Shown piece after piece: positions 7,492 to 15,733 of a stretch of 64,000 nucleotides of DNA. Numbering within the stretch: position 1 is the stretch's first letter; every line of letters starts with the position of its first letter. Position numbers and translations under genes: made by a program. The notes beneath the pieces are model-generated. The model saw nothing but the letters and a program-made list of their open reading frames with translations, had not been told where the DNA came from and did not search any database. The stretch comes from Longimicrobiales bacterium (GTDB lineage: Bacteria; Gemmatimonadota; Gemmatimonadetes; Longimicrobiales; Gaopeijiaceae). Location of the stretch: contig OX639991.1 in NCBI GenBank assembly GCA_951828585.1, positions 1,954,576-2,018,575 on the forward strand. Direction: 5' to 3'.

Positions 7492-8178
7492 GTGGACACA
7501 CACAACTTCCCTTGGGGCAAGTACGACCCAGCTTCAGGTGCCACGCATCGCCTCGAACACCACCACTGCGCTGACGTGGCTTGCTGCTTCCACGCTCTGG
7601 TTGCTGAGCCAGTGATGAGGGATAGGTTCGACCGGGCAGCCGGAGGCGACGGCCTGGATGACGTGACACTGGCCAGGCTATCCGTCCTTGCCTTCCTCCA
7701 CGACTTCGGCAAGGTGAGTGCAGGCTTTCAATTCAGAGTGGGCGGCCGTCGCAGAGTCCCGTCAAAGGCGAATCACATCGAAGCTGCGGTCTGGGCATGC
7801 TGTCGGTCGGAGGTTGTGAGGGGCTTCGGGATGGACGCGCTGGAAGACTGGGGTGGCCCGGGGCTCCAGGAATTGCTGTTGGCCGCACTCGCCCATCATG
7901 GTCGCCCGATCCCACGCAAGAAGTTGGGTGACACGGGGCGGGAGAGCAGTTGGCGCCCGTGTGCGGGATACGATCCAATTGCCGCAGGGCGCGGGCTCTT
8001 CCGGCGCGCTCGCGGGTGGTTTCCCGAGGCCTTCGAAGCGGGACCAATGCTTCCAAAAGTACCCGCACTGGTTCACCACTTCGCAGGGACACTGGCGAGT
8101 GCCGACCAGATTGGCTCCAACGAGGAGCTCTTCGGGTTCGAATCGGACCTTGATCCACACTACATTTGGGATAGACCA
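7492..8178 (+). pseudogene. Cas3 HD-nuclease domain fragment (type I CRISPR)
   Basis: From a GTG start, about 225 residues match the N-terminal HD domain of Cas3: HRLEHHHCADVACCF (first His and Asp region), VLAFLHDFGKVSAGFQ (HD pair), AALAHHGRP (distal His) and GTLASADQIGSNEELFGF (last Asp). A full type I-E Cas3 is about 900 aa with a helicase; none of that is present. Homology ends at about 8165 where the frame runs into CRISPR repeat sequence. No cascade genes are nearby. It could in principle make a free HD nuclease, but a deletion relic is more likely. Confidence 0.75.
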
Positions 8179-8361
8179 AGGCCTACACCGGCACGACCGA
8201 GGACGGCCGGGGCTTCCCCGCGTGGGTGGGGATAGACCCGAGCAATACGAGATCCGGGTGAAGCACTTCCGGGCTTCCCCGCGTGGGTGGGGATAGAACC
8301 CGCGAGTCCACCGAAGAGCGCTTGCTCTACGCGGCTTCCCCGCGTGGGCGGGGATAGAACC
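8166..8361 (+). CRISPR. Short CRISPR remnant, type I-E-like repeats
   Basis: Three 29-nt repeats at 8211-8239, 8272-8300 and 8333-8361, separated by 32-nt spacers (8240-8271, 8301-8332). The 61-nt period is that of type I-E. The repeat contains the stem CCCCGC-GTGG-GCGGGG (perfect in the third, with G:T pairs in the first two) and ends GGGGATAGAACC. The last 10-12 nt of an older repeat survive at 8167-8178, leaving a third 32-nt spacer at 8179-8210. The array is cut on both sides: cas3 fragment on the left, IS-like sequence on the right. Confidence 0.88.
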
Positions 8362-9802: not shown

Positions 9803-10618
9803 ATGATCGAGCCGGATGGACCGCTGAGCCTGTCGAGGCAGAGCGTGCTGCTGGGCGTGAGCCGGTCGTCGCTCTACTACCGGCCGAAGGGGGAGAGCGC
9901 GCAGAACCTGGCCCTGATGCGACGGATGGACGAGCTCCACATGGACTATCCGTTCTACGGGAGCCGGCAGATGATGCGGCATCTCCGCCGCGAGGGTGTC
10001 ACGGCTGGCCGGCACCGGATCCGGCGGCTCATGCGGCTCATGGGGATGGAGGCGACCTACCGGCGGCCGCGCACGAGCGTGGCGAACCCGGAGCACCGGA
10101 TCTTTCCCTACCTGCTGCGCGGCCTCGAGATCTTCCGTGCGGACCACGTGTGGTGCGCCGACATCACCTATATCCCTGTGACGCAAGGGTTTTTCTACCT
10201 TGTGGCCGTGATGGACTGGGCCACCCGGCACGTCCTCTCCTGGCGGTTGTCCAACACGATGGACGCCTCGTTCTGCATCGGGGCTCTGGACGACGCGCTC
10301 ATCCATACGACTCCGGAGATCCTGAATACGGACCAGGGCTCGCAGTTCACCAGCGAGGCGTTCGCCGACCGGGTGCTGGGTGCGGGCGTGGCGTTCTCGA
10401 TGGACGGCCGGGGCCGTTTCCTCGACAACATCTTCATCGAACGACTGTGGCGGTCGCTGAAGTACGAGGCGGTGTACCTGCACGAGCTTCGCGACGGCAC
10501 GGAAGCCGGTCGGCTCATCGGGACGTGGATCGACTTCTACAACGAGGTACGCCCGCACTCGGCGCTGGCCGGGCGCACGCCAGGCGAGACCTACCGCAAC
10601 GGCACGAGGGTGATGTGA
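9803..10618 (+). CDS. IS3 transposase OrfB, copy 2
   Basis: 271 aa with intact DDE residues (VWCADITYIP, LNTDQGSQF, NIFIERLWRSLKYE). The -1 frame is open from the T7 slip site (9755-9761) through the ATG at 9803, so an OrfAB fusion can form. It has several substitutions relative to copy 1, so the copies have diverged or arrived separately. Confidence 0.9.
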   Translation: MIEPDGPLSLSRQSVLLGVSRSSLYYRPKGESAQNLALMRRMDELHMDYPFYGSRQMMRHLRREGVTAGRHRIRRLMRLMGMEATYRRPRTSVANPEHRIFPYLLRGLEIFRADHVWCADITYIPVTQGFFYLVAVMDWATRHVLSWRLSNTMDASFCIGALDDALIHTTPEILNTDQGSQFTSEAFADRVLGAGVAFSMDGRGRFLDNIFIERLWRSLKYEAVYLHELRDGTEAGRLIGTWIDFYNEVRPHSALAGRTPGETYRNGTRVM

Positions 10619-10963: not shown

Positions 10964-12031
10964 TCACTGATCTGACCCGCAGCCCTGTTGTGCGGCTGTC
11001 AACGGCGGCTGTCGCTCTGGGGCCCTGTAGCTCTCCCCTTTGACCGTCACGGCCCAGATGATGCGTGCCATCCGATTGGCCAGGGCCACTGCGACTACCT
11101 TCCTGGGCTTCTCGTTCAGCATGCGGGCAAGCCAGGGGTCGGTGACGTTCTTGCGCCGAATGGCACTCGATATCACAGCCGTCGCTCCCAGATAGAGTAG
11201 CCTCCGTATGTCGCGCTGACCCATCTTCGTGATTCGCCCCAGCCGCTGGCGGCCACCCGTCGAAGATTCGCGCGGCGTGAGTCCGACCCATGCCGCAAAG
11301 TGACGTCCGTTTCGGAAGGACTCCATCGGTGGCGCAAAGGTGTGGACCGCCATCGCCGTGAGTTCTCCCACCCCCGGGATCGTCATCAGGCGCGCGAGCT
11401 GCTCATCGTCCCTCACGATCCGACGGATCTCCCGGTCCAGCTCATCGATTTCCACGTTCAGATCCCCGATCCGCTCGATCAGTAGGCGGATGGCGGGGGG
11501 TGCCGGCGCCGGGAAGTGCTCCTCACGCGCGACGAATGCCTCCTCCAGCCTTTCGACGTTGTGGATCCCGAGTGGAACGACCAGACCGAACTCTGCCAGA
11601 TGACCCCGAAGCGCGTTAATCGTCTGGGTGCGCTGCTGCACGAGCAGCCCCCGGCTCCGGAACAACACCGAGCGCGCCTGCTCCTCCTCGGTCCTGACGG
11701 TCACGAACCGCATCGTCGGGCGCTGGGCCGCCTCGACGATCGCTCCCGCGTCGTTGGCATCGTTCTTCTGCCTCTTCACGTAGGGCTTCACATACACCGG
11801 GGGAATCAGCCGGACCTCGTGGCCGAGCCCCAGGATCATTCGTCCCCAATGGTGAGCGCTCGCGCAGACTTCCATCACGACCCTGCAGGCGGGCTGCCCG
11901 CCGAGAAACGTGAGCACCTTCGAGCGCGTGAGCTTCCTGCGCAGCACTGGCTCACCATCCGCTGTTGCCCCGTGCAGCTGAAAGTACCGCTTCGAGATGT
12001 CGATGCCGATGACACTGACCACTTTATCCAT
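10964..12031 (-). CDS. IS110-family transposase
   Basis: 355 aa. The N-terminal DEDD RuvC-like domain has VIGIDISKRYFQLHG (first Asp), RVVMEVCASAHHWGR (Glu) and KRQKNDANDAGAIVEAAQ (Asp pair). The C-terminal Transposase_20 domain has MTIPGVGELTAMAVHTF and HFAAWVGLTPRESSTGG with the conserved Ser. It appears complete. IS110 enzymes are guided by a bridge RNA encoded in the element's own non-coding end. The stop lies 48 bp from IS3 copy 2. Confidence 0.93.
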   Translation of the reverse strand: MDKVVSVIGIDISKRYFQLHGATADGEPVLRRKLTRSKVLTFLGGQPACRVVMEVCASAHHWGRMILGLGHEVRLIPPVYVKPYVKRQKNDANDAGAIVEAAQRPTMRFVTVRTEEEQARSVLFRSRGLLVQQRTQTINALRGHLAEFGLVVPLGIHNVERLEEAFVAREEHFPAPAPPAIRLLIERIGDLNVEIDELDREIRRIVRDDEQLARLMTIPGVGELTAMAVHTFAPPMESFRNGRHFAAWVGLTPRESSTGGRQRLGRITKMGQRDIRRLLYLGATAVISSAIRRKNVTDPWLARMLNEKPRKVVAVALANRMARIIWAVTVKGESYRAPERQPPLTAAQQGCGSDQ

Positions 12032-12489: not shown

Positions 12490-13335
12490 ATCCCACTGTT
12501 CGCGCCCCAACTCGATTCCCTGTTCCTGCCCTTCCTGCCGAATCTCGTCCAAGCTGCGCTGAAATGCCGTCGCAACGGTTCCCATGGTCATCGCCTCCTC
12601 CAATTGCTCACTGGTCATCCCCTTCGAACGTAACATCGCCGTGACCGCCGGGGTCAAGAACCGGTCGAAGTCCTCGTCTTCGCATTGTTCGACGACCTGG
12701 CGCACCGCCGCCAACTCGTCCCGCATTCGAGGAGCCGTGGACAGGCCCACCATCGCCAGCACCATCTGCGGAAGGTCAAGCGGGGTCGGCGGCGGAGCCT
12801 CCGGCGGCCTTGGCGAGACTACTCGGTATGTGTCCGGGGCGGAATCGCGAAACAGATCCCGCAGACGGGTCGGAGCGTTCCACGGCCGGTCTCCATGGTG
12901 CAATACCAGGCACGCCACGGACAGGTTGCGCTCGCCGCGCCCCAAGTCCTTGTCGCTTCGGAGAAGTTCCTGGGCTGCGAGGCCGGTGGACTGCGAGGCC
13001 GGTGTAGACGGTGGTCCGGAGGGCCATTCGCCGCTCCGGTCGGCCCTGGAACTCCAGAAGGAGCACGTAGTCGGTCTTCGCATCGGAGGAGCGGCCCCGC
13101 CAGATCTTGTCGGCGTAGCGCCGCTGCAATTTGTCGTCGACGAGTTCCGCAGGCAGCCGCTGGAGTGACGAGTAGTCGATCTCCTCGGCCCATTCGGGGA
13201 TATGGGCCCTGATGAGGAGCTCGATCACCCGAGGGTGTGAGAAAACCGTCTTGAAGAACGCGTCTTCCAACGCATGGCCCGGCTGGTGTGGAACGGTAGT
13301 GCCCCGTGATGGACTTCGGGCCACGGCCACGTCAC
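12490..13335 (-). pseudogene. Rpn-family PD-(D/E)XK nuclease, frameshifted
   Basis: HALEDAFFKTVFSHPRVIELL, TDYVLLLEFQGRPERRMALR (nuclease core with Glu) and, in a second frame, LGRGERNLSVACLVLHHGDRPW together identify the Rpn/YhgA recombination-promoting nuclease family. The frame breaks at a 16-bp tandem duplication (12973-12988 and 12989-13004, differing at one position). The C-terminal low-complexity tail EGQEQGIELGREQ ends abruptly near 12490. The N-terminus is fused in frame to a D-amino-acid-oxidase-like fragment, so the native start is uncertain. Confidence 0.75.
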
Positions 13336-13660
13336 CCTCGCGCCCCCCATACGTAACCAGATCCGCCGCCATCTCTGCCGTCCCCCACGACAGCGTGACC
13401 CCGCCACCACCATGCCCGTAGTTGTGCACCACCAGCTTCCCCGCCAGCCGCTCCGCCCGCACCACGAACCCCTCGGCCCGGTACGGCCTCAACCCGGCCA
13501 CCACCCGAATCACCCGATCACTCGACACCCGCACCGGCCGCAACGGCTTCCACGGCGGCGCGGCCCCGAGCCATCCCTCCGGCCGCGAAGCACACCCGGT
13601 CGCCCATCCCCCGGCAACGACCCCCGCCGAAACCCTCAGCCACTGCCGCCGATCAATCAC
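13336..13660 (-). pseudogene. FAD-dependent oxidoreductase (DAAO-type) N-terminal fragment
   Basis: From GTG 13660 the frame reads VIDRRQWLRVSAGVVAGGW, a Tat-like twin-arginine leader. Then come RVVAGLRPYRAEGFVVRAER and VVHNYGHGGGGVTLSWGTAE, a stretch shared by D-amino-acid oxidase-like proteins. After MAADL the homology ends and the frame flows into the Rpn nuclease gene. The enzyme is incomplete. Confidence 0.65.
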
Positions 13661-13698
13661 CGGCGTACGCTCGCGCGCGCGCACCGTCCCGCCCCCCC

Positions 13699-14157
13699 TC
13701 AGACCACCTCCAACTCCGTCGTGATCGCAATACATCCGTGCAACGTCCGATACACCGGACATCGCATCGCATGCATGTCGTACGACCTCCCCACCGCCGC
13801 CTGGTCCGCCCCGGCCGCTTCCAGCCGGTACTTCGCATGAATCTCCCGCACCACCAGCACCCCGTCCTCCTTGCCCACCCTCCCCTTCACCTCCGCCGTG
13901 AGCCTGCCGCCCGACGCATCGATCCCGCGTGCCTCCAGCACGCCTCCGAAGGTTCCGACGAGTCAGCCGCCGGTAGCGGCGATCACGTAGTCGAGCGTGG
14001 TGGTGGTCTCGGTTTTGAGGCGGACGCCGTAGTGCTCGGCGATCGCGCCGTGGACGCCGAACTCGACCGGGCCGTCGTGGGCGGGCAGCCAGGCGAGGCG
14101 GTGGGGGCCGCGCGTGCGTTCGATCCGCACGTCGGCTTCGTAGACGATGTCGCTCAT
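13699..14157 (-). CDS. OsmC-family peroxiredoxin-like protein with in-frame TGA; candidate selenoprotein
   Basis: 153 codons if TGA at 13965-13963 is decoded. The N-part reads MSDIVYEADVRIERTRGPHR ... TTTLDYVIAATGG, then TGA, then LVGTFGGVLEARGID ... YDMHAMRCPVYRTLHGCIAI. OsmC/Ohr proteins reduce peroxides using a Cys in a GGC-like motif and a second Cys in CPV. Here the second Cys is kept and the TGA occupies the first. A hairpin follows 19 nt later. Both halves keep family similarity, arguing for Sec insertion. The alternative is a TGC-to-TGA nonsense mutation. A membrane-protein gene lies 26 nt upstream in the same direction. Confidence 0.7.
13927..13965 (-). promoter_or_regulatory. Candidate bacterial SECIS hairpin
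   Basis: On the coding strand, TGA (13965-13963) is followed by 19 nt and then GCGTGC-TGGAG-GCACGC (13943-13927): 6 perfect base pairs closing a 5-nt loop with G at its second position. The UGA-to-loop distance (25 nt) and a G in the first two loop bases fit the known bacterial SECIS pattern. Confidence 0.55.
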
Positions 14158-14183: not shown

Positions 14184-14741
14184 TCACATGGGCCACAGCC
14201 AGGCGAAGATGCCGGCCGTGAGGAGAGCGTACACGAGCCCGTCGAGCGCGTGCTTGAAGGCGACCTTGCCGGGGAGCCCGAACCAGATGCTGTCCTGGAA
14301 GCCGATGAAGCCATGGGCCATGAAGGCCGCGGTGCCGGTGACCTGGAAGACGGACAGGTACGACGCGCCCACCTCCCGCGTGCTCGCCGCCAGGTAGGCC
14401 ACGAAGACCGCGACGACGAGATGGAGCAGAACCGACTTGGCCATCGCCGGCTTCATGTCGATCACCGTTGCCGGGTCGCGCACCCGCAGGATCCCCACCG
14501 GACCGGCGGCCAGCCTTTCCTGGTAGTCCTCGCTGGACGTCTCGCTGTCCGGCGCCCACGGGAACATGTACATGCCGGGACCACCGCAGCGGCGGACCGC
14601 GTCCATCAGGCCGTCCTCGTCGTCGGCGCGGGCGGAGTCGTTCTTGTGGTGCGGCATGACCATCCAGGCCATCGCGCTGACCACGAAGACGACGATGGCG
14701 GAGAGCAGGATGGGCAGCCAGAGGGCGGTGAGGGTGACCAC
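14184..14741 (-). CDS. Conserved membrane protein of unknown function
   Basis: 185 aa from GTG 14741 (AGGAG 8 nt upstream). One N-terminal helix (LTALWLPILLSAIVVFVVSA), a soluble middle with PHHKND and MYMFPWAP, then three helices (SVLLHLVVAVFVAYL; FQVTGTAAFMAHGFIG; LDGLVYALLTAGIFAWLW). I recognise the overall pattern from hypothetical proteins of environmental bacteria but no function. It probably forms a two-gene operon with the OsmC gene. Confidence 0.7.
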   Translation of the reverse strand: MVTLTALWLPILLSAIVVFVVSAMAWMVMPHHKNDSARADDEDGLMDAVRRCGGPGMYMFPWAPDSETSSEDYQERLAAGPVGILRVRDPATVIDMKPAMAKSVLLHLVVAVFVAYLAASTREVGASYLSVFQVTGTAAFMAHGFIGFQDSIWFGLPGKVAFKHALDGLVYALLTAGIFAWLWPM

Positions 14742-14896
14742 GGCGGTACTCCTGGGGAAGGATGGGTGGGTGAGCGTGGGTGGCGAGATCGCGGGGGTCG
14801 CGGGCCGCGCGGACTGGACCCCGGCGACCCGCGACAATAGTGTTTCGGGGCCCCACAGGCCAGCCGCCAGATCCCGTGAGACCGCTAAAGGCCGAA

Positions 14897-15733
14897 ATGA
14901 CAACGATTACGCACGACTTCCGCGACCGGCGCGCGCCGCCGATGGCGCCGGCCCGGTCCAAGATGTGGATGCTGTCAATGACAGCGCTGTCAATGCCTGC
15001 ACTCTTCCTCGCGTCTCTCGTCCCGACCCCCGCCACCGCCCAGACCGACCCGCGCGTCCTCGAGATCATCGACGAGGTGGACCGCCTCATGCGGGGCGAA
15101 TCGAGCACGGGCCGCATGCGCATGGAGATCGACACCGAGAACTGGTCGCGCTCTCTGGAGATGAGCGTCTGGTCGCTCGGCACGGAGTACTCGCTGATCC
15201 GCGTGGAGAGTCCCCCGCGCGAGTCCGGCACCGCGACCCTCAAGGTCGAGAACGAGGTCTGGAACTACCTGCCCCGCGCCGACCGCACCATCAAGATCCC
15301 GCCCTCGATGATGCTCGGCTCGTGGATGGGCTCGCACTTCACCAACGACGACCTGGTCAAGGAGAGCCGTCTGATCGAGGACTACGACATCGTCATCTCC
15401 TTCGAGGGCGACCGCGACGGCGAGGAGGTGTGGGAGTTCACGATGACGCCCAAGCCCGAGGCGCCGGTGATCTGGGGCCGCATCGAGCAGCAGATCCGCA
15501 AGCGCGACCGCATGCCGACGTGGGCGCGCTACTACGACGAGGACGGGACGCTCTCGCGCAGCATGACCTTTTCGGACATCGCCGTCATGGGCGGCCGGAC
15601 CGTGCCGACGCGCACGGTCATCCAGCCGGCGGACGGCGAGGAGCGCACGGTGGTGATCTACCTGGAGCTGGAGTTCGACGTGGGGCTGAAGGAGGACTTC
15701 TTCAGCTTGCGGAATCTGCGGGCGAGGCAATGA
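14897..15733 (+). CDS. LolA-like outer-membrane lipoprotein-sorting protein
   Basis: 278 aa. A signal peptide (hydrophobic stretch ALSMPALFLASLVPTPATAQ) precedes a lipoprotein-carrier-like beta fold of the LolA/LppX superfamily (SLEMSVWSLGTEYSLIRVES, VWNYLPRADRTIKIPPSMML, ARYYDEDGTLSRSMTFSDI). ATG 14897 is chosen because the leader follows directly. It starts the operon with two FtsX-like permeases and a LolD-like ATPase, so it likely takes a substrate from that transporter in the periplasm. Confidence 0.85.
   Translation: MTTITHDFRDRRAPPMAPARSKMWMLSMTALSMPALFLASLVPTPATAQTDPRVLEIIDEVDRLMRGESSTGRMRMEIDTENWSRSLEMSVWSLGTEYSLIRVESPPRESGTATLKVENEVWNYLPRADRTIKIPPSMMLGSWMGSHFTNDDLVKESRLIEDYDIVISFEGDRDGEEVWEFTMTPKPEAPVIWGRIEQQIRKRDRMPTWARYYDEDGTLSRSMTFSDIAVMGGRTVPTRTVIQPADGEERTVVIYLELEFDVGLKEDFFSLRNLRARQ

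Follow-up and report, generated by a model that had tools for sequence, protein, structure and literature searches.

A predicted selenoprotein of the OsmC/Ohr fold in Gemmatimonadota, with selenocysteine proposed at a conserved in-frame UGA codon

We propose with high confidence that the minus-strand gene at 13699-14157 specifies an OsmC/Ohr-fold selenoprotein (Sec-OsmC), in which selenocysteine (Sec) would be inserted at UGA codon 65, and which likely acts as an organic hydroperoxide reductase. Here and below, coordinates without a prefix are positions in the window, the whole 64,000-nt stretch of DNA that was analyzed, and the source genome is called G000. Sec decoding is very well supported by the sequence comparisons described here, from which we also infer actual Sec insertion, the substrate, the reductant, and the physiological role.

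The reading frame opens on the minus strand with an ATG at 14157-14155, 5' of which lies a GGAG motif, and continues as MSDIVYEADVRIERTRGPHRLAWLPAHDGPVEFGVHGAIAEHYGVRLKTETTTTLDYVIAATGG-(TGA 13965-13963)-LVGTFGGVLEARGI...MRCPVYRTLHGCIAITTELEVV to a stop codon, TGA, at 13701-13699. With the internal TGA read through, the 152-residue product, which contains U65 and a probable resolving Cys, C133, belongs to the Pfam OsmC family (PF02566; 46.6 bits vs a cut-off of 27.5). The internal TGA (13963-13965, minus strand), the proposed Sec codon, occupies the position of the peroxidatic Cys: it aligns with the Cys of the genome's own Cys-OsmC (L131) and with TGC/TGT in the Cys homologues L174 and L177. 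An earlier note on this DNA had placed an in-frame TGA at the catalytic Cys position of an OsmC gene whose frame continues beyond it, and had stated that the second Cys (CPVYR) is kept; both observations hold, and C133 (codon 13759-13761, minus strand) is invariant across the alignment. For the residues 5' of the TGA, the note's frame and position were right, and its wording, ATGG, is corrected to AATGG, with GGC GGC as the ending codons.

Relatives were gathered by a contig scan, which yielded 80 loci, and by a scan of 395 Gemmatimonadota genomes, which yielded matches in 123. Because the contig-scan patterns left out the TGA, its conservation was not built in. TGA is nevertheless present in 110 of 110 loci with a readable codon, a count that covers both sets and includes some genes fetched twice, and by record titles the loci with TGA span four phyla: Gemmatimonadota, Acidobacteriota, Acidimicrobiia (Actinomycetota), and Calditrichota. 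Among the full-length relatives that the Gemmatimonadota scan lists, each has exactly one in-frame stop, always TGA. The same is true of each strong match in 297 genomes of Acidobacteriota, the phylum of locus L049, where 30 genomes have a match; the few matches that lack TGA are weak and come from distant proteins, and the hairpin is missing from two of these, whose aligned codon is TGC or TGT. Neither the contig scan nor the 395 Gemmatimonadota and 297 Acidobacteriota genomes yielded a Cys ortholog that falls within the Sec-OsmC clade, and no relatives were found among viral contigs. A tree sets the Sec rows apart from the Cys rows, and is indicative only, with just three distant Cys rows, one of them on an extreme branch.

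These data bear directly on whether the gene is instead an ordinary Cys-type osmC gene inactivated by a nonsense mutation. Decay does occur nearby, as the adjoining DAO-type oxidoreductase gene is broken by mobile-element debris, but the relatives carry the same TGA without any further lesion and the protein is strongly conserved on both sides of it. That both the TGA and the frame beyond it are conserved excludes a pseudogene or a random nonsense mutation, to which we assign a negligible probability; together with the complete Sec machinery described below, it supports the earlier note's preference for a Sec-decoded gene. Neither observation that the note had named as speaking against its reading, a genome devoid of Sec machinery or relatives with random lesions, was made. 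That note had also called the product a peroxidase, and this part of its claim is a prediction from the fold and the active-site residues.

In close relatives, the gene order is membrane protein, Sec-OsmC, and DAO-type FAD-dependent oxidoreductase. The first of these neighbors, a predicted membrane protein of no Pfam family, is found upstream in the window at 14184-14903 (minus strand). Downstream lies the start of the oxidoreductase gene (13320-13702, minus strand). This gene is intact in relative L021, but the copy in the window breaks off after about 125 codons and runs on in frame into a Transposase_31-like fragment (12776-13702). A functional link with the oxidoreductase, for example through peroxide that it makes, is speculation. 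Just downstream of the broken gene are an IS3-type integrase core (9803-10618, plus strand) and an IS110-type transposase (10964-12031, minus strand). Also in the window, a Cas3 HD domain (7492-8235) runs directly into a short CRISPR-like array (8202-8361) of three repeats with 61-nt spacing, and the stretch 7492-8361 looks like a truncated CRISPR-Cas locus.

A hairpin of the bacterial SECIS type (13927-13943, minus strand) starts 19 nt after the TGA, with stem GCGTGC (13943-13938), loop TGGAG (13937-13933), and stem GCACGC (13932-13927), exactly where the earlier note had drawn a 6-bp stem and a 5-nt loop containing GG. The bacterial SECIS model calls for a stem of 4-16 bp, a loop of 3-9 nt with a G in its first two positions, a UGA-to-loop distance of 16-37 nt, and an MFE of at most -7.5 kcal/mol (PMC13188914); the hairpin agrees with it on every count (6 bp, UGGAG, 25 nt, and a minimal hairpin energy of -11.3 kcal/mol), and no difference was found. 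In single-sequence folding, the energy of a 51-nt stretch of this GC-rich sequence was no better than that of shuffles (z -0.33), for which reason folding energy is not taken as evidence.

Evidence for the hairpin comes instead from pairing, covariation, and synonymous constraint. Across the 85 distinct sequences used for nucleotide analysis, the six stem pairs are formed in 509 of 510 cells (99.6%) and the loop reads UGGNN in 84 sequences, with a summary consensus across relatives of UGGAR. Compensatory changes exchange C-G and U-A at pair 4 and G-C and A-U at pair 5. Percent paired and covariation score exceed those of all 500 shuffles, the number of pairs with a double change exceeds that of 497 of 500, and slid controls fall below the hairpin on pairing and covariation. 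Because kinship among the sequences inflates such shuffle tests, the case is made to rest on three other observations. The pair-4 exchange recurs in separate groups, the window clade and Acidobacteriota locus L160, and it links a change at the second position of one codon (Ala GCG / Val GTG) to a synonymous change at the third position of another (Ala GCG / GCA), a pattern for which selection on the protein alone does not account. A pair-5 exchange is seen in a paralog from the same genome, described below. Finally, the five least synonymously variable codons of the whole gene (72, 73, 74, 76, and 77) all fall within the hairpin, and the mean synonymous ratio is 0.36 over codons 72-77 vs 0.93 elsewhere (Mann-Whitney p 6e-4).

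Searching the genome with the Rfam model SECIS_1 (RF00031) gave no match, and that model matched no control genome either. When G000 was searched with a covariance model for other SECIS elements, two OsmC genes alone stood out. A third match (E 0.003, L140), antisense in an apparent pilus-assembly operon, was taken as chance. The second of the two OsmC genes is a Sec-OsmC paralog at G000:C1:893950-894402 (L134:1451-1903), which matches the window gene in the codon position of its TGA and in the spacing from there to its hairpin, GCGCAC-UGGAG-GUGCGC. The two paralogs are 35-36% identical to each other, and such pairs are present in many genomes.

G000, a single contig of 4,472,315 bases (4.47 Mb) that is 99.5% complete, contains all four components that the earlier note had proposed to look for: selA (497.5 bits), selB (318 bits; an open frame of 661 codons), selD (383.6 bits), and tRNA-Sec (79.7 bits), which ARAGORN also calls as tRNA-SeC with anticodon TCA (UCA). 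The selD gene (G000:C1:1180470-1181396; L135) has its own in-frame TGA at the active site (GUACK); SelD with a Sec codon is a known kind of SelD. From the full pathway and the TGA-containing genes, it follows that G000 decodes Sec and that three or more of its genes, among them selD and the two osmC paralogs, are predicted selenoprotein genes.

The distribution of selA, which was found in 290 of the 395 Gemmatimonadota genomes scanned, points the same way. It is present in 118 of the 123 genomes that match the OsmC query, a few of them only weakly, vs 172 of the 272 without a match (Fisher p 7e-14), and a selA match was obtained in 20 of the 21 genomes behind distant loci. The five genomes with an OsmC match and no detected selA are G146, G211, G339, G377, and G378, several of which are fragmented or incomplete drafts. 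Taken with the conserved TGA, the compensatory pairs, and the synonymous constraint, this co-occurrence is evidence that the hairpin is more than a chance structure.

The identity of the inserted residue is not given by sequence alone, and UGA might in principle be reassigned or suppressed to another residue, such as Trp, Gly, or a near-cognate insertion. This reading is extremely improbable: the gene's own stop is TGA, the genome encodes every component of Sec decoding, a tRNA-Sec with anticodon UCA among them, Cys homologues have their catalytic Cys at the aligned position, the SECIS-like hairpin is conserved, and presence of the gene tracks selA. Read-through at UGA/SECIS elements is generally incomplete, and one could also imagine the TGA as a selenium switch, with a mainly truncated product and read-through to the Sec form only under an ample selenium supply. 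The presence in G000 of a separate OsmC (positions 668186-668479 of that genome) that is an ordinary Cys protein would be compatible with such regulated termination. A product of 64 residues, however, would contain neither catalytic redox residue and less than half of the fold, and conservation is strong 3' as well as 5' of the TGA, leaving this explanation very unlikely.

What the protein would do is suggested by its fold. Because phmmer gave no match for Sec-OsmC among PDB sequences, a fold search was used. The AlphaFold2 model of the monomer, built from 43 aligned sequences, has a pLDDT of 93.3 and a pTM of 0.87, and its best matches among solved structures are all OsmC/Ohr proteins (Foldseek E 2e-9). 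In structure comparison, 2onf reached a Z of 15.2, and E. coli OsmC and several Ohr proteins scored about 12-14. Six columns are invariant in the 43 sequences: R20, D56, U65 (read as C), L74, R124, and C133. Ohr enzymes use a Cys-Arg-Glu triad and a resolving Cys, with a lipoylated protein as the reductant (PMC5962072); R20 and D56 probably correspond to the Arg and Glu of that triad. By analogy, and based on the alignment, U65 is predicted to be the peroxidatic residue and C133 the resolving one, with R20/D56 as the Arg/acid pair. Compared with Cys enzymes of the family (for example Xylella Ohr, PDB 4XX2, and E. coli OsmC, 1QWI/1NYE), Sec-OsmC has the common fold (Z about 12-15) and likewise two catalytic positions, a conserved Arg, and an acidic residue; it differs in having Sec for the peroxidatic Cys, Asp for Glu, and an identity of about 10-20%.

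From the fold and active-site residues, the protein is likely to be a peroxidase that acts on organic hydroperoxides and depends on thiols or lipoyl groups. We propose that SelB and tRNA-Sec would insert Sec at UGA codon 65 under the direction of the downstream hairpin, and that on the central helix the selenol of U65 would stand in for the peroxidatic Cys. The substrate would most likely be organic (lipid) hydroperoxides, with the selenolate attacking ROOH. The resulting selenenic acid may then react with C133 to form a selenenylsulfide, which a dithiol reductant (a lipoylated protein or similar) could reset. Substrate and reductant are uncertain because identity to solved OsmC/Ohr structures is so low. 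Alternatively, this OsmC-fold protein may be a Sec oxidoreductase whose main substrate is something other than an organic hydroperoxide, for example a disulfide or persulfide reductase, a proposal that leaves Sec decoding untouched and challenges the functional assignment only. The low identity would allow this, as would the placement of the acidic residue, an Asp 9 residues before U, vs Glu51 of Xylella Ohr, 10 before Cys61 (PMC5962072). Since the protein retains both redox positions, peroxidatic and resolving, along with an Arg and an acidic residue, we consider another main substrate rather unlikely and favor the peroxidase assignment.

Beyond the window, the relatives raise the possibility, which we find plausible but somewhat short of probable, of a deep, apparently Sec-only OsmC branch that has been kept since before the paralog split across Gemmatimonadota, Acidobacteriota, and other phyla. 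If so, it would be one case in which Cys does not easily take the place of Sec, and would provide one of the reasons why these phyla keep Sec decoding. The apparent lack of Cys orthologs makes the branch a good test of why some peroxidases retain selenium. Genes interrupted by a TGA are often split or omitted by gene-calling programs, and Sec-OsmC, a putative antioxidant selenoprotein common in two large and mostly uncultured phyla, is for this reason likely to be missed in annotation. Sec-OsmC otherwise agrees with established selenoprotein biology.

OsmC-like selenoproteins have been described before. The Sargasso Sea survey of 2005 reported three sequences with the motif UxxT (PMC1088965), the GOS study of 2008 reported five (PMC2398784), and the family also appears in reviews (PMC9312934, PMC13188914); the earlier note was right to recall Sec-containing OsmC-like proteins from marine metagenomes. 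Our literature search found no paper tying OsmC-like selenoproteins to Gemmatimonadota. Compared by published motif only, the present proteins have U[LM]xGT, with Thr at +4 (U-L-V-G-T), vs Thr at +3 in UxxT, an offset that could mean either that the subfamilies differ or that the residues were counted differently. Whereas the reported set consists of metagenomic sequences with known Cys homologues (PMC1088965, PMC2398784), the present relatives come from genomes of Gemmatimonadota, Acidobacteriota, Actinomycetota, and Calditrichota, many with two paralogs; what may be new is this broad clade with its U[LM]xGT motif, its paralogs, and no detected Cys ortholog. Common to the reported proteins and this one are an OsmC domain (PF02566/COG1765), a redox-site Sec, and a bacterial SECIS downstream, and the window gene is a genuine further member of a family known since 2005.
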